NCBI GenBank assembly: GCA_030550025.1
Contig: JAUQQC010000004.1
Location: 62,001-126,000, forward strand
DNA: 64,000 nt
From: Acidobacteriota bacterium
GTDB lineage: Bacteria > Acidobacteriota > Blastocatellia > HR10
Direction: 5' to 3'
Shown: piece by piece, positions 3,717-40,589 of the stretch
How positions within the stretch are numbered: position 1 is the stretch's first letter
Layout of the letters: every line of letters starts with the position of its first letter
Position numbers and translations under genes: made by a program
The notes under the pieces: generated by a model
Told to the model about the DNA's origin: nothing
Databases searched by the model: none
The model's input: only the letters and a program-made list of their open reading frames with translations

Positions 3717-4739
3717 TTAAGGGATCACGGTGACTTTGACGGCTTCGCCTGCGCGCAAAAGTCGAAAGCCTTCGCCGATCGCCTCCAGTTCCACACGGTG
3801 AGTCACCAACCGCTCGAGCGGCAGAAGCCCCGCTTCCAATATGTGCACGACTTTCGGAAAGGCCGTGCGTTGGATGTACGATCCCAGGACGGTGATCTCG
3901 TAGCGCGTGATCTCGTATTGATTCAACTCGCGCTCCGCGTGTAAGTTCATGCCGAAAAGGACGATGCGCCCTCCACGCCGCACCAGCCACATAGCTTCCG
4001 GCAAGAGCGTCCCTACGGCATCAATGACGATGTCGGCGCCCAGACGGGTTCGCCTCTTGATCTCCCGAGGGACGTCATGGGCATTTGGATCAAGAACGGC
4101 GTCGGCCCCCAGACTTTCGGCCATATGGCGGCGAAACTCGGCGGGTTCGACCACGCAGATCGGATAAGCTCCAGCAGCCTTATAGAGCATCAAAAACATG
4201 AGTCCGATGGGCCCCGCCCCAAGGATGACGACGCTCTCCCCCGGAACGAAAGCCGACTTCTCAAATGAATGAAGCACGCAGGAAAAGGGTTCGGCGAGCG
4301 TCGCGCGATCTAAGGGGACCTCTGGGCTGATCTTGTGCACGGCTTTTGCTGGAGCGACGTTCCACTCCGCCAATCCGCCATGCTGGAAAATCCCTAATGT
4401 GGTCATGTTCTCGCACATATTCGAGAAACCCAATCGGCAATATTCACAAATTCCGCACGTGATGTTCGGATCGACCACCGCGCGGTCTCCTGGGCGAAGA
4501 TGATGCACGCCGGGGCCGACCTCAACCACCGTCGCGACATATTCATGGCCGAGGATCGTCCCTGGCGTGGCTGGATGTCCCGGAGGGACCGAGAGGATGT
4601 GAAGGTCGGTCCCACAAATGCTCGCGCGTTCCACTTTCAGGAGGACCTCGTCCTCCGTTCGAAGTTGCGGTGGAGGGTGAGATTCGATTCGCCACTCCCC
4701 TTCACCTCGAAAGACCACGGCTCGCATCGTCTCTCTCAT
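3717..4739 (-). CDS. Zinc-dependent medium-chain alcohol/polyol dehydrogenase (MDR, threonine/sorbitol dehydrogenase type)
   Basis: This 340-residue MDR enzyme has catalytic-zinc ligands in SICGTD and ILGHEYV, a structural-zinc cluster with four cysteines (CGICEYCRLGFSNMC), and a Rossmann motif VVILGAGPIGLMFL. It should oxidise a secondary alcohol of a sugar, polyol or amino acid with NAD(P). Its ATG overlaps the stop of the preceding secreted-protein gene by 4 bases. In this inositol/glycan locus a cyclitol or sugar-alcohol substrate is plausible. MDR enzymes have been reported to act in a Thermotoga inositol pathway, but threonine dehydrogenase activity cannot be excluded. Confidence 0.88.
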   Translation of the reverse strand: MRETMRAVVFRGEGEWRIESHPPPQLRTEDEVLLKVERASICGTDLHILSVPPGHPATPGTILGHEYVATVVEVGPGVHHLRPGDRAVVDPNITCGICEYCRLGFSNMCENMTTLGIFQHGGLAEWNVAPAKAVHKISPEVPLDRATLAEPFSCVLHSFEKSAFVPGESVVILGAGPIGLMFLMLYKAAGAYPICVVEPAEFRRHMAESLGADAVLDPNAHDVPREIKRRTRLGADIVIDAVGTLLPEAMWLVRRGGRIVLFGMNLHAERELNQYEITRYEITVLGSYIQRTAFPKVVHILEAGLLPLERLVTHRVELEAIGEGFRLLRAGEAVKVTVIP

Positions 4740-6106
4740 GGCCAGATCTCCACCATATCGCCGGCTCGAAGGCGGATGGGATCCATTCGAACCGGTAGGG
4801 TAGGACCAGGACGAAAGTTCGCGTCCAGGAAGAACGCCTTACGCACTCCTCGCACGAAGCATCCCGCTTGTGCCCATCGCTCACCGGCGCGCGGCGTCCG
4901 AGGATCCAGAAGTGCATCGCATCGAAGAAGGAGCCGCTCGATGTGCGATGCGCTCATCCCTTCCGGAAGCGGGATCGTCGTGCGCAGGAAACCGCTCCGT
5001 TCGAGCTTGAAGTAAACGAACCCGAGATCCGACGAGTACCACTTTGGATCCCCTACACATTTCGCGGCGAGACTCACACCCGCATCGCGCTGCTCCGACG
5101 CGATCTCGAGGTACAAATAGCGACGGGGGTCGAGGATCTGCTGACCGACGCGAGGCGTCGAACCCACTTTGCCCTCTCGACGCAGCTCCTCAGTCATGAT
5201 GCGGTACGTCCATGGATGCCGATCCATCAATTCCTCGCGCGCGACCGCGCTTGTGTCGAAAGGGAGAGGGCGAAGGGCGAATCGCATGGGCGAGCGTCCG
5301 CGATCCGAGAAGTTGTTGTTGTCGGAGACGACGAAAAGGAGCGGATGGTCATCCTCCCGCCGTCCGCGAAATCGGCGCGTCCGGTGACGCGTGCCTTGAT
5401 AGCGGGCGTCAAGGACGCGTCCCTCCGGGGTTATCGTCACTTCGTAAACCCACTCGATGTCCGTCGCTCGCCCCCATCGAGCCATGAGAGCGTTCGTCTC
5501 CGTCCCTCCGTCCTCGTTACTGAAGATGACGCTGTAGCGGATCGTGAGCATCTCCTGCGCGCGCGTCATCTCATACCACATGAGGAGGGGGATATCGGTG
5601 AACCTCCCGATGCTATTCGGGCGCGCATAGAGGATAGGCGAGTGCGCGAGCGGGAAGAACTCGGGATCGGCGCGGCTCACCAGATGCAACGCGAAATCCT
5701 CGATGATGGGCGCGGAGACATGTGGCGCCGAGCGCGTGCGATTCCAGAGCAAGTGAATCGTATGCGTCCCCGGGCGCACTCTCCCCAGATGAAGGGCATA
5801 GCGGAAGGAGACTTCTCCGGCGAAGAGGATGACATCTTGATGAGAGCGCCCATCCAACCAGACGGTGAGCACGGCGGCTTCGCGCCCCCTTTCGCCCCAA
5901 TTGGCTCCGGGGACTCTGGCCTGCAACTCGGCCAGAACTTCCGATTCCACATCCACGCGAAAAGAGCGCTCCAGAAGAACTTGTGCATGAACGCGCGGAA
6001 GGGATCCATGGAGGAGAAGTCCTCCGATGCCCAAAAGCCACGCGCGCATCAAGCAAGGCCACCACTTGCTCCCTCTTTCGCGGTTTGCCTTCTCCATCGC
6101 CCTCAT
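4736..6106 (-). CDS. Secreted protein of unknown function
   Basis: A basic N terminus followed by a hydrophobic stretch (LLGIGGLLLHGSLPRVHA) looks like a signal peptide cleaved near residue 41. The rest (456 residues in total) is rich in beta-strand-like segments, with paired motifs such as WYEMTRAQEMLTIRYSVIFSNEDGG and later RYLYLEIASE. I do not recognise a family. The start codon overlaps the alpha-mannosidase stop by 4 bases (6103-6106) and its own stop overlaps the MDR dehydrogenase start, so it is locked into the operon. A carbohydrate-binding or glycan-processing role is inference from context only. Confidence 0.8.
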   Translation of the reverse strand: MRAMEKANRERGSKWWPCLMRAWLLGIGGLLLHGSLPRVHAQVLLERSFRVDVESEVLAELQARVPGANWGERGREAAVLTVWLDGRSHQDVILFAGEVSFRYALHLGRVRPGTHTIHLLWNRTRSAPHVSAPIIEDFALHLVSRADPEFFPLAHSPILYARPNSIGRFTDIPLLMWYEMTRAQEMLTIRYSVIFSNEDGGTETNALMARWGRATDIEWVYEVTITPEGRVLDARYQGTRHRTRRFRGRREDDHPLLFVVSDNNNFSDRGRSPMRFALRPLPFDTSAVAREELMDRHPWTYRIMTEELRREGKVGSTPRVGQQILDPRRYLYLEIASEQRDAGVSLAAKCVGDPKWYSSDLGFVYFKLERSGFLRTTIPLPEGMSASHIERLLLRCDALLDPRTPRAGERWAQAGCFVRGVRKAFFLDANFRPGPTLPVRMDPIRLRAGDMVEIWP

Positions 6107-30850: not shown

Positions 30851-30878
30851 TTGACATCGAGCGGAATTCGTCTATAAT
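30851..30878 (+). promoter_or_regulatory. Consensus sigma-70 promoter for the TPR-HTH gene
   Basis: A perfect TTGACA (30851-30856) and perfect TATAAT (30873-30878) are separated by 16 bp. The ATG at 30931 follows after a leader of about 45 nt. The -35 overlaps the left arm of an inverted repeat ATCCTTGAC (30847-30855) / GTCAAGGAT (30898-30906), so the promoter may be controlled by a protein binding both arms. Confidence 0.7.
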
Positions 30879-30930
30879 TCTTCTTGCGATCGTTGAGGTC
30901 AAGGATCGTGAACGATTATCGAGGGGAATC

Positions 30931-32355
30931 ATGAAGGCGACGAAGGTTCGAGAGATCACGCTCTTAGAGCAGGCCATCTACTCCGGTCGATTCCGGGAAG
31001 CGGAGCGGATGGCCGAGGAGATTTCGCCGACCGACTTGCGGTCGGCAGCCGCGAAGGCTCAGGTGTTGATCTACAAGGGGGAGCTTGAGGAAGCTGGGGA
31101 GTTGCTCGGGGCCTTTGAGAAGCGGCTGGCAGAGGCGAACTTGAAGGAAGCGGCCGAGTTCGGTTTGGCGAAAGCGGAGTGGCATTATTGGCGGGGCGAG
31201 TACGAGGAGGCCAAGCGGCAAGCGCAAGTTGTCCTCGGGATCTATAGCCTCAATCGCGATCATTTCGGGCTGGCGCGCGCGCTATACGTATTGGGACGGG
31301 TGTATCGGCGTCAGGGCGACTATGAGCAAGCGCGGCAGGAGATGTTGCGGGCCCTTGAAGAGGCGGAGGTCGTTGCGGATCGGCCGACGGCATTTCTGAT
31401 TGGGCTTATCACTTTCAACCTGGGTGTCATTCATTACTTTTTGGGCGATCTCGTGCGGGCGGAGCAGGAGTTATTGGCAGCCATTCGCGCCCTGGAGGCG
31501 GAGCGGGGTCGGTACTATGGTAATGCCTTGAACTTCTATGGGACGCTGCTGATTGGAAAGGGGCTGTACGAAGAGGCGGCGCGCATCATCCAAGCAGCAT
31601 ACGGGTGCTTGGCCGAGAGCGCGTTCTTCGACGATCTGGCACATGCGACGAACAACCTGGCCTACGCGTGTATCCGCATGGGGGAGTTCGAGCGCGCAGC
31701 ACGGTTACTGGAGGAGAGTTTGGAACTGCGCCGCCGGTCCAAGGACATCGCCGGAGAATCGGCCACGCTGGAGCTTTTCGGGCGACTGCGCTTGGAGCAA
31801 GGGCAGTTGTCCGAGGCAGAGACTATCCTGCGACAAGCCATCGAGTTGGCGGAGTTGGGGAAGAATCCGCACGAGAAGGCGGTCGCAGCGATCACCCTGG
31901 GGCGCGTGCTCATGGCGCAAGGACGGTTGGAGGAGAGTCAACAACTTCTCGAAGAGGCCTTGGACTTGGCTCTGCAGTTGAAGAACAAGTCGCTTCAGGC
32001 CGAGAGTCACACCTATCTTGCGGAGCTGTGGGTCCATCGAGGCAACGGGATGCAGGCTCTGGAACATCTCAGGCGCACGAAGGCGTTGCTCAATGGGTAT
32101 CGCGATGCCTATCTGTTCGCGCAGATTGAGCGGATCGAGAGGTTGGTGCAGCAGCAGCGGATCAAAGCCGAAGAGGGGGTCTTCATGATCCGGAGTAGCT
32201 TCCTGCCTACCTGGCGAGAGGCTCATGAGATGCTGGGGAAGTTTCTCTTGGCGGAGGCGTTGCGGCATGCCGGTGAGAATCAGACGAAAGCCGCCGAGCT
32301 GCTGGGCGTCACCAAGGCCTACATCACGATGTTGCGAAAGAAGTACGGGATTTGA
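30931..32355 (+). CDS. TPR-repeat protein with C-terminal Fis-type helix-turn-helix
   Basis: This 474-residue protein is almost entirely helical repeats of TPR type (for example ALYVLGRVYRRQGDYEQARQEMLRALEEA and ESATLELFGRLRLEQGQLSEAETILRQAIELA), about eight units up to residue 420. The last 35 residues (EALRHAGENQTKAAELLGVTKAYITMLRKKYGI) match the Fis/HTH_8 domain found at the C terminus of sigma-54 activators, but no AAA+ domain is present. There is no signal peptide, so it should be cytoplasmic and bind DNA. It is transcribed divergently from lacI and followed after 16 bp by a small exported protein. The combination recalls TPR regulators that sense peptides, but that is inference. Confidence 0.85.
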   Translation: MKATKVREITLLEQAIYSGRFREAERMAEEISPTDLRSAAAKAQVLIYKGELEEAGELLGAFEKRLAEANLKEAAEFGLAKAEWHYWRGEYEEAKRQAQVVLGIYSLNRDHFGLARALYVLGRVYRRQGDYEQARQEMLRALEEAEVVADRPTAFLIGLITFNLGVIHYFLGDLVRAEQELLAAIRALEAERGRYYGNALNFYGTLLIGKGLYEEAARIIQAAYGCLAESAFFDDLAHATNNLAYACIRMGEFERAARLLEESLELRRRSKDIAGESATLELFGRLRLEQGQLSEAETILRQAIELAELGKNPHEKAVAAITLGRVLMAQGRLEESQQLLEEALDLALQLKNKSLQAESHTYLAELWVHRGNGMQALEHLRRTKALLNGYRDAYLFAQIERIERLVQQQRIKAEEGVFMIRSSFLPTWREAHEMLGKFLLAEALRHAGENQTKAAELLGVTKAYITMLRKKYGI

Positions 32356-32371
32356 TAAGGAGGTTCGGCAT

Positions 32372-32737
32372 ATGAGGAGACTTCTCGCGATCGCGTTTCT
32401 CATGTTCATGCTCGGGAGCCTTGTGTTGCCCATTCGTGCGGGCGTCACAGCAGGTGGAAGACCGTATCTCCCTGGTGAGGACCTCCCGGTCGGAGGAGTG
32501 ACGGCCGGAGGCCGACCTTTCATCACTGGTGGAGGGGTGTTCACCCCTGCTGGTTTCGGCCTGGGGGCTCAGCTCTACGATGAGGGATGGGACGTCGCGT
32601 CCGATCCTTATTGGGGCGGGGGCGGATGGGTCGATCTAGGATGGTGGCCTTCCTGGTCCTGGCTCGGATGGGGAGCATTTGGCATCCTCGATTTCTTCTT
32701 CGGTCTTCCCGTTGGCTTTTTCTTCACTCTGTACTGA
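32372..32737 (+). CDS. Small exported Gly/Trp-rich protein with repeated GVTAGGRP motif
   Basis: This 121-residue protein has a clear signal peptide (RRLLAIAFLMFMLGSLVLPIRA) with a likely cleavage after Ala-23. The motif GVTAGGRP follows immediately at residues 24-31 and again, exactly, at 42-49. The second half is dominated by Gly and Trp (eight Trp between 73 and 100) and ends in a hydrophobic Phe-rich tail (about 102-121) that could sit in a membrane. A canonical AAGGAGG lies 8 bases before the ATG. It is 16 bp downstream of the TPR-HTH gene and must be co-transcribed. No family is recognised; it could be a secreted signal precursor, a cell-surface peptide or a small membrane protein. Confidence 0.75.
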   Translation: MRRLLAIAFLMFMLGSLVLPIRAGVTAGGRPYLPGEDLPVGGVTAGGRPFITGGGVFTPAGFGLGAQLYDEGWDVASDPYWGGGGWVDLGWWPSWSWLGWGAFGILDFFFGLPVGFFFTLY

Positions 32738-32749
32738 CTGTGCTGGAGG

Positions 32750-32790
32750 AGGTGCGGTCCCGAACATGGCCCCCCTTCGGGACCGCGCCT
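32750..32790. terminator. Bidirectional hairpin between convergent operons
   Basis: Arms AGGTGCGGTCCCGAA (32750-32764) and TTCGGGACCGCGCCT (32776-32790) pair over 15 positions with one G-T wobble and an 11-base loop. The core 11 bp are perfect. It lies between the TPR operon and the phosphate operon ending with phoR, so it can end both, although no long T-run is present. Confidence 0.7.
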
Positions 32791-32795
32791 AACAC

Positions 32796-33926
32796 CTACT
32801 TCGTTGCGTCGGTCGAAGGCGCTCCCTGCGCGACCTTCGGTTCAGGGACTGCCTTCAAGCGGACAGTGAATTCCGAACCCACGCCGGGTTCGCTTCTGAC
32901 GTGGATCTCTCCTCCATGAAGTTGAACGAGATGCTTCACGATGGCTAGGCCGAGGCCACTCCCCCCGGTCTCGCGAGATCGAGATTTCTCACCCCGATAG
33001 AAGCGCTCGAAGATGCGGGGTTGGTCGGCCGGAGGGATACCGATTCCGGTGTCGGCGATCGAGATCTCCAGATGTTCCCCCAGACGGCGCGCGCGAATCC
33101 ACACGTGGCCGTTAGGCCGGTTGAACTTCACGGCATTGTCCAAGAGATTCTGCAGGATCTGCGTCAGGCGGAGGGGATCGGCCAGAACCTGAATCGCCTC
33201 TGGGACTTCATTCACTATGGCGATGCCGCGCTCTTCCGCTTGAGGTTGGATCAGGGCCAAGACATCTTCGACGAAAGCGCGCAACGGGAGCACTTCGAGA
33301 GAGAGGGCGATCGCGCCCGATTCGATCTCCGCCAGATCGGTGATGTCGCGCACCAAGGCGTGGAGGCGCTGCGCTTGACGAAAGAGGCCATCAAGGCAGC
33401 GGCGCATATGTTCGGAATCATCCGGTTCGATCTCCTGCAGGGTCTCGACGTAAGCGAGGATGGCCGCCAGTGGCGTGCGCAGTTCGTGCGAGAGGTTGGC
33501 GAAGAAGTCGCGCCGTATGCGCTCCAAGCGCTCCAGGGCGGTGATCTCCACGAAGACGCCCAGGGCAGCGTGCGGCGTATCGGAAGCGAGGTGCAGCGGG
33601 GCGATCCTGACCTGAAACGCGCGCGGCTCGCCGCGTCGCAGCTCGAAGCGCGATTCGACGGAAGCGCCATGTTCGAGCGCCTGTTGGAAGCCTTCGTGCA
33701 GCGTGGGATCGCGCGTGAGATCAATTAGTCGAAGGGGGCGGGAGGAGATCGGCGGTGGGGGGAAGATCTCGGCGGCCGCTGGATTCTGGACGAGAACGGT
33801 CATCTCCCGATCCACGACGAGCACCCCTTCGCGCATGGCAGCCAGGATGGTCCGCCACACAGGGTGGGCCGCGTGGACCAGCTCACGAAGGAACTCGCGA
33901 TGGGCGTTCTCTTCGGCGGAGATCAC
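32796..33926 (-). CDS. phoR: PhoR-like sensor histidine kinase without membrane segments
   Basis: This 376-residue protein has a PAS-like sensor region (MREGVLVVDREMTVLVQNPAAAEIF), a DHp motif FFANLSHELRTPLAAIL with phospho-accepting His at about 147, and HATPase_c boxes NLLDNAVKFN, DTGIGIPPADQPRIFERF and GGSGLGLAIVKHL. It should autophosphorylate and control PhoB. The GTG at 33926 overlaps the phoB stop as GTGA; longer in-frame extensions would only read phoB in the wrong frame. The predicted protein has no transmembrane helices, unlike the usual membrane-bound PhoR, so signal may come through PhoU or another cytoplasmic partner. Confidence 0.88.
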   Translation of the reverse strand: MISAEENAHREFLRELVHAAHPVWRTILAAMREGVLVVDREMTVLVQNPAAAEIFPPPPISSRPLRLIDLTRDPTLHEGFQQALEHGASVESRFELRRGEPRAFQVRIAPLHLASDTPHAALGVFVEITALERLERIRRDFFANLSHELRTPLAAILAYVETLQEIEPDDSEHMRRCLDGLFRQAQRLHALVRDITDLAEIESGAIALSLEVLPLRAFVEDVLALIQPQAEERGIAIVNEVPEAIQVLADPLRLTQILQNLLDNAVKFNRPNGHVWIRARRLGEHLEISIADTGIGIPPADQPRIFERFYRGEKSRSRETGGSGLGLAIVKHLVQLHGGEIHVRSEPGVGSEFTVRLKAVPEPKVAQGAPSTDATK

Positions 33927-34633
33927 GGCGAGGCGTCGGAAGGTTCGTGCGGTCGCGGGCGAAATCGGTACCCGATGCCGACGACCGTCTCGATGTATCC
34001 TTCGATCCCGAGCTTCTTCCGCAGATTGCGCACGTGCACGTCGAGCGTGCGCGTATCGCCGTAATAGGCGAGGCCCCAGATGCGATCGAGCAGGTATTCG
34101 CGCGTGAGCGTGCGACCGGGATTTCGCACCAGAAGAGCGAGCAACGCGAACTCCTTTCGCGTGAGCTTGATCTCGCGCCCTGCGACCTTCACGATGAAAT
34201 GGGCTGGATTCAGATAGAGCGTCCCATCGTCGTAGATGGACGCCGGCTCCTCCTCGTCCTGGGCCCGGCGCAGCAGGGCTTGCAGTCGTGCTTCCAGCTC
34301 CCGCAGGCTGAAGGGTTTGGTCACGTAATCGTCTGCCCCGAGGTTCAACCCAAGGACCTTGTCCGACTCGCTCGTCCGGGCCGTGAGCATGAGGATCGGC
34401 AACCGACGCGTTGCGTGCTCCAGACGGAGGCGGCGGCAGAGCTCGAAGCCGTTCATCTCCGGCAGGTTCACATCGAGAATGAGCGCGTTTGGCCGCCGCC
34501 GGGCAAGGGCGCGTAAGCCCTCTTCGCCCGTCAGCGCGATCTCCACCTCGTATCGTCCCCAACGTTCCAGATGCTGTTTGAGCAGATGCGCCAGTTCGAC
34601 GTCGTCCTCGATGATCAGGATCGTCGGCTTCAT
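33923..34633 (-). CDS. phoB: Phosphate-regulon response regulator (OmpR/PhoB family)
   Basis: This 236-residue regulator has a receiver domain (LIIEDDVELAHLL, phospho-acceptor Asp at about 54 in LILDVNLPEM, Lys in DDYVTKPFS) and a winged-helix DNA-binding domain (KEFALLALLVRNPGRTLTREYLLDRIWG). PhoB-type proteins activate pst and porin genes when phosphate is scarce. The ATG at 34633 overlaps the phoU stop as ATGA and is preferred to a GTG four codons earlier. The coupling phoU-phoB-phoR identifies the phosphate role. Confidence 0.93.
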   Translation of the reverse strand: MKPTILIIEDDVELAHLLKQHLERWGRYEVEIALTGEEGLRALARRRPNALILDVNLPEMNGFELCRRLRLEHATRRLPILMLTARTSESDKVLGLNLGADDYVTKPFSLRELEARLQALLRRAQDEEEPASIYDDGTLYLNPAHFIVKVAGREIKLTRKEFALLALLVRNPGRTLTREYLLDRIWGLAYYGDTRTLDVHVRNLRKKLGIEGYIETVVGIGYRFRPRPHEPSDASP

Positions 34634-35307
34634 AACTCTGGCCACTCGCGATGATGCTTGATGACCTCGCCGCGCGCCATGTAAACGATCTGCTCGCAGA
34701 TGTTCGTCACGTAATCGGCGATCCGCTCCAGATGCTTGATGATGAAGAGCAGTTCCGCTCCTCGGCGGACGGTCGTCGGATCTTCGGTCATGAGCTCGAG
34801 TAGCTCATCGTAGATGCGCTTGTAGAGCGCATCGGCTTGATCGTCGTGCCGAATCGTCTCCAGAGCTTTCGCCGCATCGCAACCGGTGAACGCATCGAGA
34901 CCGTCCAGCAGCATCTGCTGGACGATGCGGGCCATCTCCGGGATGTCGAAGTAGATCTTCAACTGCGGTTCTCGATTCAGTCGGAGGACGTGACGGGCGA
35001 TATTCACGGCATGATCGGCGATCCGCTCAATAGCCGGGGCCGTCTTCACCGCGGCGATGACGAAGCGCAAATCGGAGGCTGTCGGTTGTCGGAGCACGAG
35101 GATATCGATGCACAGCTCATCCACTTCGTTCTCCAGTTGGTCGATCTTATCATCATCGCGAATGACCTGTTCGGCCAGCTCCGAGTCGCGTTCGACCAGG
35201 GCGCGGATCGCCTGAGCGATGGCCGCTTCGGCGCGCCCGCCAAGCATCAGGAGCTTGTCGCGCAGCCGATTCAAATCATGATCTATTGGCCTGAGATGAT
35301 CGGCCAT
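34630..35307 (-). CDS. phoU: Phosphate signalling complex accessory protein PhoU
   Basis: This 225-residue all-helical protein has the two PhoU repeats, including RIADHAVNIARHVL and RIADYVTNICEQIVY, the E/DxxxD metal-binding helices of the family. PhoU links the Pst transporter to PhoR and dampens phosphate uptake when phosphate is plentiful. It lies 22 bp downstream of pstB and overlaps phoB, the usual pst-phoU arrangement. Confidence 0.95.
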   Translation of the reverse strand: MADHLRPIDHDLNRLRDKLLMLGGRAEAAIAQAIRALVERDSELAEQVIRDDDKIDQLENEVDELCIDILVLRQPTASDLRFVIAAVKTAPAIERIADHAVNIARHVLRLNREPQLKIYFDIPEMARIVQQMLLDGLDAFTGCDAAKALETIRHDDQADALYKRIYDELLELMTEDPTTVRRGAELLFIIKHLERIADYVTNICEQIVYMARGEVIKHHREWPEL

Positions 35308-35329
35308 GTGTGCTCTCCTTCCCTCGCCC

Positions 35330-36169
35330 TCATCCGAAGCGCCCCGTGAGATAATCTTCGGTCAACTTCTCACGCGGCACCGTGAACAATTTCTCCGTCT
35401 GGTTGAATTCTACAAGACGGCCCATCCAAAGGAAAGCCGTGTAATCGGAGACGCGGGCGGCCTGTTGCATGTTGTGCGTGACGATGATGATCGTGTAGTG
35501 GCGTTTCAGCTCGGCGATCAGCTCTTCGATCTTCTCCGTGGCGATCGGGTCCAAGGCCGAGGCCGGTTCATCCAAGAGCAGGACCTCCGGTCGCACGGCC
35601 AACGCCCGGGCGATGCAGAGCCGTTGCTGTTGCCCCCCAGAGAGCGTGAGTGCCGACTCATGCAACCGATCCTTCACTTCGTCCCAGAGAGCGGCCTGGC
35701 GCAAGCTCTCCTCGACGCGCTCTTCTAACTCCCGGCGATCGCGCACGAGTCCGTTGACGCGCAAGCCGTAGGCGATGTTCTCGAAGATCGTCTTCGGGAA
35801 GGGATTCGAGCGCTGAAAGACCATGCCCACGCGCCGCCGCAAGCGCACGACGTCCACCTGCGGGTCGTAGATGTTCTCCCCATCCAGAAGGATGTGCCCT
35901 TCCGCGCGCGTGTCTGGGATGAGGTCGTTCATGCGATTGATGGCGCGCAAAAGCGTCGTCTTGCCGCATCCTGAAGGGCCAATGAGCGCCGTTACCTGAT
36001 TTCGCGGGAACCCCAGCGTGATGTCGTGCAAGACGCGCGTGTCTCCGTAGTAGAAGCTGAACCGCTCGACCTGAACCTTCACCGACAGCGCCTGCGGTTC
36101 GGCCAAGCGCGCCTCAGTCACTTCCGATCTCGAAGCGTTCTCTCTGAGCAACTCGACTTTTGGCCGCAC
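35330..36169 (-). CDS. pstB: Phosphate ABC transporter ATP-binding protein
   Basis: This 279-residue ATPase shows Walker [10 protein letters not shown] at about 64-72, the PstB-specific INRMNDLIP and QRSNPFP loops, signature [15 protein letters not shown] and Walker [13 protein letters not shown]. It powers phosphate import through PstC and PstA. Translation starts at a GTG (36169), 6 bases after a strong GGAGGAG ribosome site. It lies 39 bp downstream of pstA. Confidence 0.96.
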
Positions 36170-36208
36170 CGTTCTCCTCCTGATTGACGAGACCTCAGCC
36201 TTCGCTCC

Positions 36209-37255
36209 TCAAGTGCGAACGCGGAATCGCCGTCGCACGCGGGCGCGAATGAGCACGGCGACGACGTTGAGGGCGAACGTGAGTGCCAGCAGGACCAGGA
36301 CCGTCCCGTAGAGCAAAGGCTTGGTCTTCTCGACATCCGGCGATTGGGTCGAGAGGATGAAGACGTGATAGCCGAGCTCCATGAACTGGTCGTTCAATCG
36401 GCTCGGCAGATAGGGAAGGAAATAGGCGGCGCCTGTGAAGAGGACCGGAGCGACCTCCCCGGCCCCGCGACTCACGGCGAGAATGGTGCCGGTGAGGATC
36501 CCGGGCAGTGCCTCTGGCAGGACGACGCGCCAGATCGTTTGCCAGCGCGTGGCTCCCAGCGCCAAGCTCGCTTCGCGCAGTTCGCGCGGCACGGCGCGCA
36601 GCGCCTCGTCGGTGGCGACGATCACCACTGGCAGCGTGAGCAAGGCCAGGGTCAGCGCCGCCCAGATGATAGCCGGCTGCCCGTAGGTCAATTCCCCCCC
36701 ATAGAGAAGTCGGTCAATGCTCCCGCCCACGAACTGCACGAAGAACCCAAGCCCAAAAAGGCCGAAGACGATCGAGGGGACGCCGGCCAAGTTATTGACA
36801 GCCGCGCGCGTCGCCTGGGCGAAGAGGATCTCCAGAACGTGCATCCCCTCCCGAAGACGCGCTCGCCACGAACGCGCCGCCCGCGCTCGCGCCCACGCGT
36901 AGGCGAGGTTCGATCCGGGGACGAATTCGCGCAGGTATACCGCCGTCGCCACGCCGATCGGAACGGCGGCGATGGTCATCAGGATGACGAGGGCCACCGT
37001 CCCGAAGATCGCCGGGAAGATCCCCCCCTCGGTCATGCCCGCGCGCGGCGCCGTCGTCAGGAAGTCCACCGTGATCTGTCCAGCCCCATTCCAGACGATG
37101 TTCCCCAAGATGATCCCGAGCATCGCCACGATGAGGGCGCTCGCCACCGCGAGCAACCCGATAGGGACCTGTTCGCGGAAGCGTTCCCAGAACAACGTCG
37201 GTCGCGAGACGATGAGCGATGTCGTCGGCATCTCCAGACGAGGCCCGGCGTTCAT
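36209..37255 (-). CDS. pstA: Phosphate ABC transporter permease PstA
   Basis: This 348-residue membrane protein has about six hydrophobic helices and the ABC permease EAA loop LREASLALGATRWQTIWRVVLPEALPGILTG. The ATG at 37255 overlaps the pstC stop as ATGA. An insertion-like Arg/Ala-rich stretch (YAWARARAARSWRARLREGMH, about residues 120-140) lies in a loop and makes the protein somewhat longer than common PstA. It forms the inner-membrane phosphate channel with PstC. Confidence 0.94.
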   Translation of the reverse strand: MNAGPRLEMPTTSLIVSRPTLFWERFREQVPIGLLAVASALIVAMLGIILGNIVWNGAGQITVDFLTTAPRAGMTEGGIFPAIFGTVALVILMTIAAVPIGVATAVYLREFVPGSNLAYAWARARAARSWRARLREGMHVLEILFAQATRAAVNNLAGVPSIVFGLFGLGFFVQFVGGSIDRLLYGGELTYGQPAIIWAALTLALLTLPVVIVATDEALRAVPRELREASLALGATRWQTIWRVVLPEALPGILTGTILAVSRGAGEVAPVLFTGAAYFLPYLPSRLNDQFMELGYHVFILSTQSPDVEKTKPLLYGTVLVLLALTFALNVVAVLIRARVRRRFRVRT

Positions 37256-38214
37256 ATCTCTCCCCGCAATCGGCGTTGGACGCGGTGGATGATGTACACG
37301 CCCACCGAGTTCACGATGAACGTGACGACGAAGAGCAGCGCTCCGATGAAGAAGAGGACGTGATAATGTGGGCTTCCGAAAACGACCTCGCCCAATTCGG
37401 CCGCGATCGTCGCCGCCAACGTGCGCACCGAATCCGTGAAACGCCAGGACGTGATCGCCGCGTTCCCCGAGGCCATCAGGACGATCATCGTCTCTCCGAC
37501 GGCGCGTCCGAACCCTAGGACGAGGCTGGCGAAGATGCCGGGCGACGCCGCAGGTAGGACGACGCGCGTCGCCGTTTGCCAACGCGTGGCGCCCAGCGCC
37601 AAACTCGCCTCGCGCAGACTCTGCGGGACGGCGTTCAACGCATCCTCGCTCACCGTGTAGATGATCGGGATCAACGCCAGGGCGAGCGCCGTCCCCGCCG
37701 TGATCGCGTTCAACCGCGTCGGGAATCCGAACAGCTGCTGCATCCATGTCGCGAGGGCGATCAGTGCGAAGAACCCCAAGACCACCGATGGAATGCCGGC
37801 CAAAAGCTCAATGGCCGGCTTGATCACCTCTCGAATCCGCGCGGGCGCGAATTCGGACGTGTAGAGCGCTGCCGCGATGGCTAACGGTGCCGCGATCAGC
37901 AAGGCCACGAGCGCCGTCTTCAACGTCCCCAAGATCAACGGAATGAGACTGTATTTCGGCACGAGGGCAATGGGCTGCCACATATATCGGCTCGCCGGAT
38001 CCGGCCCCTCCATCGGGTGGAAGAAGTGACGGAAGCTCGCCTCCTGTTGGATCCTCGGATCGGTCAGAATTGGCAGCGCCTCGCGAAAGATGAAGATGAA
38101 GATAAGGACGATCGTGGCGATGGCCGTGAGCGAGAGCGTGAGAATCGCGCGACGCGCCCATCGGTCGGTCCACAGGCGCCGTTGGTCATCGCCGAACGTC
38201 ATCCTGCGCCTCAT
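37252..38214 (-). CDS. pstC: Phosphate ABC transporter permease PstC
   Basis: This 320-residue membrane protein has a first transmembrane helix at about 23-46 (AILTLSLTAIATIVLIFIFIF) and the EAA loop LREASLALGATRWQTATRVVLPAASPGIFASL. It is the partner of PstA. The ATG at 38214 lies directly after pstS; an alternative ATG four codons downstream is possible. Its stop overlaps pstA. Confidence 0.94.
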   Translation of the reverse strand: MRRRMTFGDDQRRLWTDRWARRAILTLSLTAIATIVLIFIFIFREALPILTDPRIQQEASFRHFFHPMEGPDPASRYMWQPIALVPKYSLIPLILGTLKTALVALLIAAPLAIAAALYTSEFAPARIREVIKPAIELLAGIPSVVLGFFALIALATWMQQLFGFPTRLNAITAGTALALALIPIIYTVSEDALNAVPQSLREASLALGATRWQTATRVVLPAASPGIFASLVLGFGRAVGETMIVLMASGNAAITSWRFTDSVRTLAATIAAELGEVVFGSPHYHVLFFIGALLFVVTFIVNSVGVYIIHRVQRRLRGEI

Positions 38215-38215
38215 C

Positions 38216-39127
38216 TCACGAATCGCGTTCCCACCTCCGGGCGATCTCCCGGCGCGTCTCTTCCGGCAGCGGATAGTACCCGACGTCCTTCACCACCGCC
38301 TGTCCTTCGGGCGAAAGGACCCACCGGATGAAATCGCGCGCCACCGGGTTGCTCGGCTTCCCCACCGTGTAGAAGTACAACTGGCGACTGATCGGATACT
38401 GGCCGGAGAGGACGTTCTCTAAGGTCGGAGCGATCGCCGGAGACACCTCATCCTTCCTGATCTTGAGCACCTTGATCCCCGCCCCGTAGGCGATCCCGCC
38501 GTAGCCGATAGCCTTCGGGTCTTTCGCCACGGCGTTGATGACGGCCGCCGTCCCCGGGAGCGTTTGCGTCGCCGGAGCGAAATCGGCGTTCTCCAGGACG
38601 TGCTCCTTGAAGTAAACATACGTGCCCGAGTTGTTCTCCCGGCTGTAGAGGACGATCGGCAGATCCGGCCCACCGATGTCCTTCCAGTTCGTGATTCGTC
38701 CCGTGTAGATCGCCTTGAGCTGCGCCAGCGAGAGCTCGCTCACCGGATTCGACTGATGGACGTACACGGCCAAGCCGTCCAGAGCGACCGGCGTCTCAAT
38801 CACCTCCACACCGAATTTGACCTTCACTTGCTCGGCCTCCGCGGGTTTGATCGGACGCGAACTTTGCGCGATGTCCGTCGTCCCGTTGATCAACGCGGCG
38901 ATCCCCGTTCCCGATCCCCCCCCGGTGACCTGGATCACCGTTCCCGGATGCCGTTGCATGTAGACCTCAGCAAATCGCTGGCCCAAGATCACCATCGTGT
39001 CCGAACCTTTGACGGTGACGGCGCGCGCGCGGTCCGATGGCGCGCGCGAGGAGCACGCGAGGCTCCAGATGGCCAGGACGCCGCACGCGATGAAGAGCCC
39101 TCGGTTCGTTCGGCGAGCGTTCCTCAT
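38216..39127 (-). CDS. pstS: Phosphate-binding lipoprotein PstS
   Basis: This 303-residue periplasmic binding protein begins with a lipoprotein signal peptide (lipobox LAC at Cys-25). The core shows VKGSDTMVILGQRFAEVY, QVTGGGSGTGIAALINGTTDIAQSSR and the phosphate-loop region YSRENNSGTYVYFKEHVL typical of PstS. It captures phosphate for PstCAB. A GGAGGAGG ribosome site precedes the ATG, and the porin gene ends 10 bp upstream, so they share a transcript. Confidence 0.95.
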   Translation of the reverse strand: MRNARRTNRGLFIACGVLAIWSLACSSRAPSDRARAVTVKGSDTMVILGQRFAEVYMQRHPGTVIQVTGGGSGTGIAALINGTTDIAQSSRPIKPAEAEQVKVKFGVEVIETPVALDGLAVYVHQSNPVSELSLAQLKAIYTGRITNWKDIGGPDLPIVLYSRENNSGTYVYFKEHVLENADFAPATQTLPGTAAVINAVAKDPKAIGYGGIAYGAGIKVLKIRKDEVSPAIAPTLENVLSGQYPISRQLYFYTVGKPSNPVARDFIRWVLSPEGQAVVKDVGYYPLPEETRREIARRWERDS

Positions 39128-39137
39128 GCCTCCTCCT

Positions 39138-40589
39138 TCAGAAAGCGAATTGTAGCCGCGTGAGCACGGAGATCGAGCGCTCCGCGTGATGGAGCGGCCG
39201 CGCCGGGAAATGCTCCACGGCCAGATCGAGCATGTACTTGACGAAGGGGGTCAGATACCAGTTCACCCCGCAGGTGACCGTCTCAGCGCGCGCCGATCCC
39301 ATTCCATCCGAGAGTTGCAGTACCGAATAGCGAATCTTCGCCTCCCAAGCACCCCATCCGCGTTCTCCCTTTCCCGAAGAGAGAAACGAGCGGCGAGGGG
39401 TGACCGGTCCATTCTCCGGCTTCTTCTCCCCGGTGAGCAAATAGGTGGCTTGCATCGTATACCCTTTCGCGACGACCGCTGGCAGCGTCGTCTTGTTCGG
39501 CCCCAATTGGTACCGGTCTTGAGCCATTTGGTTGTACTCGGCACGCAAGGCGAAGGGGCCGGCCAGGTATGTCAGTTCGCCATTGGCGCGCAGCAGTTGT
39601 CCATTCACTGGGCGTGCGGCGAAGAACGTGACGCTCTGACTCTCCGTTTGTCCGATCAGACTCATCCCCCCGCGTTGCCGACCAAGCGCCACGGCTCCGC
39701 CGAAGCTCACGCCCTGTCCCTCGCGCGCGTCTTTCTCTCGCCAGGGCGAGACGCGCACGCGCAGGACGCCTTCGGGCGTGCGCGTCGTATTCAGCGCGAG
39801 GCCGCCTTTCCCGTTGAAGGCGCCGATGTGGTAGACGACCTTTCCATCGGCGATTTCCCCCACAAGCTGTATGCCCGGGCTACGACTCGGAGCGATTCGC
39901 GTCGCCATCGCCCGCTCCACAAAATCTATATGCATCGCGCTACGCAATTCCTCCTGCGAGAACGGCTCCTTGAATTGACCCGCTTGCACAGAGAGCCCCG
40001 GGCGTACGTGCACTCGCAACCACCCATCCCGCAGCACTCCAGTGCCGCGCTCCGCGAAATCCGCCTGAATCCTGTACTCGTAGCGGGAGAGCATGCGCCC
40101 AGACATCGCCAGGCGAAGTCGGCGCACGAGGAACGTATTGGGTGGAGCAAGCGACTCTTGCCCATAGGCCCGAAAGTCCAGTTGCCCCTCTCCGGAGAAC
40201 GAGAGCTCGAAATCTCCGTCGGCGCTCCGGAATGTCGGACGCCCACTTGACCACAGAAAGAGCGAAGGCGCTCGCTCGCGCGAAGAAGCCGTTCGTTCCG
40301 ACGAGCGATTCGAGACATCCGAGGCTTCGTCAGCTCGGCGCACAAGCGCCCGCACCTCTTGGCGAAGCTCCTCGAGGAGCCGACGCTGTTCGGCCAGCTG
40401 TTGCTTCAGCTGTTCGATCGTCTGCTCCTGTTCTCGCACCAACTTTCGCAATGCCTCCAGCTCCATCGGGGACTGCGATTGCTGTGGGCCTGGGCTCGCC
40501 AAAAGTGGGGGGGTGAAGAGGAGGAAAAAGATCCATGCCCGGAGCCCTCCCCGGACGAGCGCCTCTTGCGCTCCGTGATGGCTCATCAT
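39138..40589 (-). CDS. OprP/OprO-like phosphate-selective porin
   Basis: This 483-residue protein has a signal peptide (AWIFFLLFTPPLLAS), an N-terminal coiled coil (LEALRKLVREQEQTIEQLKQQLAEQRRLLEEL) that probably trimerises or binds peptidoglycan, and an OprP-type barrel (FLVRRLRLAMSGRMLSRYEYRIQADFAERG) ending in Phe (RLQFAF). It should let phosphate through the outer membrane. It is the first gene of the pst-pho operon, with a 138-bp gap before it that holds the candidate promoter region. Confidence 0.9.
   Translation of the reverse strand: MMSHHGAQEALVRGGLRAWIFFLLFTPPLLASPGPQQSQSPMELEALRKLVREQEQTIEQLKQQLAEQRRLLEELRQEVRALVRRADEASDVSNRSSERTASSRERAPSLFLWSSGRPTFRSADGDFELSFSGEGQLDFRAYGQESLAPPNTFLVRRLRLAMSGRMLSRYEYRIQADFAERGTGVLRDGWLRVHVRPGLSVQAGQFKEPFSQEELRSAMHIDFVERAMATRIAPSRSPGIQLVGEIADGKVVYHIGAFNGKGGLALNTTRTPEGVLRVRVSPWREKDAREGQGVSFGGAVALGRQRGGMSLIGQTESQSVTFFAARPVNGQLLRANGELTYLAGPFALRAEYNQMAQDRYQLGPNKTTLPAVVAKGYTMQATYLLTGEKKPENGPVTPRRSFLSSGKGERGWGAWEAKIRYSVLQLSDGMGSARAETVTCGVNWYLTPFVKYMLDLAVEHFPARPLHHAERSISVLTRLQFAF

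Follow-up and report, generated by a model that had tools for sequence, protein, structure and literature searches.

A TPR regulator with a C-terminal Fis-type HTH and an exported octamer-repeat protein: a probable peptide receptor and propeptide pair in Blastocatellia

Our findings on two adjoining genes, located in a stretch of 64,000 nucleotides that was analysed as a whole (the window), suggest that the first, a TPR regulator, is probably a cytoplasmic peptide receptor and that the second, a small protein with two copies of the octamer GVTAGGRP, is its exported propeptide. Gene pairing, the doubled peptide and recurrence across the class together make this look like undescribed peptide signalling in two-membrane bacteria. 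The source genome (3.17 Mb) belongs to the class Blastocatellia of the Acidobacteriota, consistent with the phylum named in an earlier, sequence-only reading, and its order includes Bacterium HR10 and HR08 according to public records. That reading had also described a TPR protein ending in a Fis-like domain and followed, after 16 bp, by an exported protein of 121 aa; ORFs and Pfam agree with this, the HTH_8 match lying just below its cut-off. By its layout the locus is bicistronic, with the TPR gene at 30931-32355 and the small gene at 32372-32737; the features of the operon are as follows.

30851-30878, + strand: strong sigma70-type promoter of the two-gene operon, TTGACA-N16-TATAAT, read from the sequence
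30904-30917, no strand assigned: palindrome GATCGTGAACGATT in the 5' UTR, conserved in the window's genus, candidate operator
30931-32355, + strand: TPR regulator, 474 aa (Pfam; AlphaFold2; orthologues in 10/10 order genomes)
32357-32363, + strand: strong ribosome-binding site AAGGAGG of the small gene, 8 nt before its ATG
32372-32737, + strand: exported 121-aa repeat protein, candidate propeptide (ORF, conservation, structure model)
32372-32440, + strand: signal peptide, residues 1-23, with an AxA-type site directly before the octamer
32441-32464, + strand: octamer copy 1, GVTAGGRP, mature +1 to +8 (sequence)
32495-32518, + strand: octamer copy 2, GVTAGGRP, unlike copy 1 at 8 of 24 nt, all silent
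32660-32734, + strand: C-terminal hydrophobic tail, predicted helix and possible membrane anchor (model; relatives end likewise)
32751-32789, + strand: hairpin 3' of the operon, inverted repeat GGTGCGGTCCCGAA / TTCGGGACCGCGCC, possible terminator

Five genomes of the window's genus keep the promoter hexamers, the one exception being a single -35 base in G001. In the same five genomes the pattern RATYGTGAACGATY occurs once per genome, always at the site of the 5' UTR palindrome, and a control pattern does not occur at all; as a candidate operator, this site may serve autoregulation of the operon. Read from the sequence, no T run follows the 3' hairpin. To one side of the pair lies an IolB/PfkB/LacI sugar cluster, to the other a PhoR/PhoB/PhoU/Pst-type phosphate cluster; the latter (32796-40589) is an ordinary Pho/Pst-type cluster with genes for a histidine kinase, a PhoB-like regulator, PhoU, an ABC ATPase, a transport permease and a phosphate-selective porin.

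Pfam assigns the regulator to TPR_12 (7.6e-29) and TPR_MalT (4.6e-21), with a weak Fis-type HTH_8 match at residues 439-461 (19.5 bits, cut-off 22). A TPR superhelix (about residues 2-410) is followed by a beta hairpin (411-420) and the C-terminal Fis-type HTH, which is its sole HTH: an N-terminal HTH or three-helix bundle is absent. The AlphaFold2 model (pLDDT 91.2) predicts an all-helical superhelix of the peptide-groove type that ends in the HTH. Its fold matches include phage phi3T Rap, crystallised with pheromone present (TMt 0.73), as well as NprR and the complex of Rap with CSF (Rap/NprR TMt 0.65-0.73); since LGN and APPBP2 (with its degron) match as well as these, the model appears to resemble peptide-binding TPR superhelices in general rather than to single out RRNPPA. 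RRNPPA profiles gave no match above threshold (AimR NF038310, 18.2 bits against a cut-off of 70; RGG_Cterm, 12 against 36.9), and PADLOC and PHROGs returned generic TPR matches alone.

The small protein has a signal peptide (calls made by eye and by rule) that opens with basic residues and continues into a hydrophobic core. All orthologues have Ala at -1, and an AxA-like signal-peptidase site directly precedes the first octamer. As the sequence-only reading had claimed, GVTAGGRP stands at the mature start (residues 24-31) and is repeated exactly 18 residues on (42-49). In five genomes of the genus the octamer DNA pattern occurs exactly twice per genome, in the small gene only, and its reversed control not at all. 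A structure model, whose low confidence (pLDDT 49) restricts its use to the helix and disorder pattern, predicts a helix (2-18), disorder (21-96) and another helix (97-120), as would be expected of a propeptide held at the membrane. The protein is glycine-rich and its genome GC-rich. A search of the own genome gave a second, weak match (G000:C10, E 0.37), which we dismissed as chance; it lies upstream of an isocitrate-dehydrogenase-like gene.

Is the pair conserved? Orthologues of the TPR gene were found in 10/10 order genomes examined (3 families, 5 genera), and in all ten loci the next gene downstream encodes a small exported protein, so the co-occurrence that the earlier reading had put forward as a check holds in all ten. 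Family f1 has 15-22 bp between the two genes, the other families 95-130 bp. The neighbours in the window's genus are LacI and PhoR. G005 has pyrC together with an ECF sigma factor, G007 has pyrC, and G006, G008 and G009 have an ECF sigma factor, the gene names in other genomes having been read from the sequences by us. As flanking genes differ between lineages, the pair was kept intact while the genes around it changed. In three genera the gene divergent to the TPR gene encodes an ECF-type sigma factor (L091, L092, L093, L094), a possible target of the regulator there; the window has no such gene at that place.

Conservation of the octamer itself is more differentiated. The window's genus does keep GVTAGG[RK]P at mature +1, the conservation that the earlier reading had proposed to look for, but other lineages carry different octamers: GQTHGGRP in G005, REGHTGRP in G006, RESHAGRP in G008 and G009 (RESHAG[RK]P being the variants of this lineage, both copies taken together) and GDTHGGGP in G007. 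These align without gaps, a second copy follows 18-19 residues on in all lineages except G007, and lineage-specific changes occur in both copies together. Copies 1 and 2 differ at 4-9 of 24 nt and at 0 or 1 residues, which indicates old copies kept alike by selection rather than a fresh duplication. The small gene is a conserved reading frame in relatives (overall pN/pS 0.28), so that neither of the two outcomes named as refuting by the earlier reading is seen, and within the window's genus the octamers (0.08 and 0.00) are its most constrained part, compared with 0.49 for the signal peptide and 0.17-0.34 for linkers and tail.

Paralogues of the regulator within the order and class are less uniform. 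In G008 and G009, the gene downstream of paralogue p2 encodes an exported protein of 55 aa that carries GDGHTGHR once; in family f1 only a tail-like ORF of 30 aa lies downstream of p2. This hydrophobic ORF (MELWLLILFAFYRFFIQFVNVLD...), located after the p2 stop codon, is conserved (L041, L042, L043, L044), comes with a separate sigma70-like promoter as well as an inverted repeat (GAAAACCC...GGGTTTTC), and resembles a propeptide tail that lacks signal peptide and octamer. The p2 copy of G003 (L049, G003:C32, about 3961-4769) looks broken, with fragmentary matches, one of which has an in-frame TAG. For paralogue p3 and the regulators of family f4, no small exported gene was found within 3 kb on each side. 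Family f4 does encode an exported 103-aa protein (L161, G021:C46:129305-129415) in which GDIDTG lies close to a membrane segment at the C terminus; no TPR-Fis regulator was identified beside its gene.

In support of a wider occurrence, the design recurs in family f5. A class-wide profile of signal peptide plus octamer gave weak matches that were checked one by one; most were rejected for being alike in the signal peptide only, and two adjoin other TPR regulators in f5, which revealed the f5 pairs. Searching with one f5 regulator found relatives in 44/162 class genomes, and a profile built from the short f5 regulators had strong matches in 5/396 genomes phylum-wide, in both cases all in f5. Among the stronger of the matches listed, 57 of 62 f5 TPR-Fis regulator genes are preceded, in divergent orientation, by a small exported ORF at a distance of 130-540 bp (nearly all 130-260 bp), compared with 2/74 control genes of the same loci; both of these control genes themselves encode peptides of the same type, in loci with neighbouring paralogous regulators. 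The f5 regulators, too, have TPRs followed by a Fis-type HTH, some with a sigma-54 AAA+ or receiver domain. With hhalign they match the window family along their whole length, with a score that the TPR repeats inflate.

The f5 small proteins consist of a signal peptide, a motif at +1 that is often repeated, a linker and a hydrophobic tail, the latter ending all 57 proteins. In 53/57 the mature part begins with G, the -1 Ala being imposed by the calling rule. Among the 57 proteins there are 54 different first hexamers, and 22 repeat their own at 5/6 or better (cross-protein comparisons, 1.2%), leaving 35 that do not. Extreme cases are a GNITSRT-type unit present five times (L257) and GDIGVG present four times (L223). 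In L257 and L258, units such as GNITSRT and GNITVSS stand four or five times in tandem in the exported proteins, whose genes lie roughly 500 bp upstream of those for TPR regulators about 800 aa long. Paralogous pairs within one genome carry different motifs; pair counts per genome being lower bounds, G053 has at least GEVHSTD, GDMPTCG, GDLPTAG, GNIPTTD, GDIAAPG and GDIHTCG. In three close f5 relatives, signal peptide and tail are near-constant and both octamer copies have switched together (VIYTD, IIWTG, IIHTE). Octamers co-diversify with their receptors: across 55 f5 pairs, the more alike two receptors are, the more alike are their octamers (Mantel r 0.33). This correlation persists when the scaffold is controlled for (partial Mantel r 0.286, p 0.0005), and co-inheritance of linked genes can contribute to it.

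How might such a pair operate? We envisage that the small protein is exported via Sec and that signal peptidase I exposes the octamer as mature N terminus, with the remainder disordered and held at the membrane by the hydrophobic C-terminal helix. Proteases would then free both octamer copies and peptide permeases would carry the peptide back in; oligopeptide-binding proteins (PF00496) are present in 10/10 order genomes, with no tie to the pair. Inside, the octamer may bind the groove of the TPR superhelix and so alter DNA binding by the Fis-type HTH at targets that would include the pair's own operon. Conserved octamers, joint copy changes and the 57/62 recurrence in f5 thus lend support to the peptide-signalling or feedback pair suggested by the sequence-only reading, with peptide binding as its presumed core. 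Points against a receptor and its propeptide are that in a diderm cell the peptide has to pass two membranes, that p3 and f4 regulators are without a partner gene and p2 in f1 has just the tail-like ORF, that known pheromone propeptides are not known to end in a hydrophobic tail, that 35 of the 57 f5 proteins do not repeat their first hexamer at 5/6 or better, and that the fold match is general to TPR superhelices. Whether the Blastocatellia hold a large, independently evolved class of peptide communication, in which each diderm cell runs many parallel channels between membrane-tailed propeptides and receptors whose TPRs are N-terminal and whose Fis-type HTH is C-terminal (in some cases with an added sigma-54 AAA+ or receiver domain), each receptor having its own propeptide, is to our minds evenly balanced.

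Could the small protein be output rather than signal? As a membrane-tethered envelope or surface protein, its octamer might be recognised outside by a neighbour cell, a phage, a protease or a binding protein, while the regulator controls the small gene in answer to another ligand. The conserved hydrophobic tail would suit this, regulators often control the adjoining gene, and selection by an outside partner could diversify octamers. It leaves unexplained, however, why octamer similarity follows receptor similarity with the scaffold controlled and why TPR-Fis regulators in particular carry such genes, and the TPR fold is of a peptide-binding type; hence we regard an output role as unlikely, and the surface-protein alternative raised earlier as less likely. 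Improbable, to our minds, is an export monitor confined to one cell, in which the regulator binds the precursor or its fragments and so reads out secretion or the state of the membrane, with no signalling between cells: operon or divergent pairing and a membrane-anchored precursor agree with it, yet many paralogous pairs with different octamers per genome are hard to explain in this way.

The regulator might instead control the precursor of a bacteriocin, toxin or RiPP, which could equally be small, exported, repeat-bearing and diverse. Nonetheless, no immunity or modification genes were recognised beside the pair in the orthologous loci examined, and the small protein has no match in Pfam, NCBIfam, PADLOC or PHROGs, making such a role highly improbable. 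Finally, a GC-rich genome and a glycine-rich product might invite the view that the repeat arose by chance or recent duplication of a segment in an ordinary protein. This is refuted by shuffles of the mature region, which gave a repeat at +1 in 0/200,000 trials for the window protein (0, 0, 1 and 4 of 200,000 in four lineages), by the silent differences between the octamer copies and by other lineages that show the same design with other motifs.

If the regulator and the small protein are indeed receptor and propeptide, peptide signalling would extend to a major diderm soil group with several motifs per genome, and how pheromones pass two membranes would become a question. Defined synthetic peptides would also be available for testing. 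Similar pairs with lineage-specific peptides recur in this class of soil and hot-spring bacteria. To our knowledge, TPR-type cytoplasmic peptide receptors with exported propeptides have been described almost solely in Firmicutes, and the literature we searched, in which subscription journals were thinly covered, gave no description of peptide signalling in Acidobacteria or of TPR-Fis regulators with secreted peptides.

The closest parallel are the RRNPPA systems of Firmicutes (Rap, Rgg, NprR, PlcR, PrgX, AimR; Phr-type propeptides), in which a cytoplasmic TPR-superhelix receptor likewise goes with a Sec-exported small propeptide. Mature RRNPPA pheromones usually lie at the propeptide C terminus, whereas the window's octamer is at mature +1 and internal and the C terminus is a hydrophobic tail. 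In RRNPPA, identical pheromone copies may be repeated up to six times (PMC9765709; repeats also PMC11343458). RRNPPA regulators have an N-terminal HTH and Firmicutes as hosts (PMC9765709); in contrast, the window regulator has its TPRs N-terminal and a Fis-type HTH C-terminal, and its host is a diderm acidobacterium. A TPR superhelix domain and an adjacent gene for an exported protein, the putative propeptide, are shared with RRNPPA (10/10 orthologues, 57/62 in f5); HTH position, profile scores and the lack of a C-terminal pheromone lead us to leave the pair outside RRNPPA, and it appears to work like such a system. The RRNPP_detector survey removed candidates with N-terminal TPRs and by default took propeptides of <=100 aa (PMC10075063), so the window pair would have been passed over and similar systems may be overlooked elsewhere. 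Internal copies set apart by linkers also occur in the tandemly duplicated Phr propeptides Phr3T and Phr105, from which they are released by proteolysis (PMC11343458). The Phr motif RRGHTA recalls the DGHTG and DMHTG octamers of Acidobacteriota pairs, a likeness that is without demonstrated homology and may be chance. MalT-type regulators share the order of TPR sensor and C-terminal HTH, but the window regulator has no STAND ATPase domain and no LuxR-type HTH (Pfam, NCBIfam), and we know of no exported partner gene for MalT. Unlike Fis/NtrC-type regulators, it has neither a sigma-54 AAA+ nor a receiver domain (Pfam); it does share their HTH_8-type C terminus, and several f5 relatives also carry a sigma-54 AAA+ or receiver domain.
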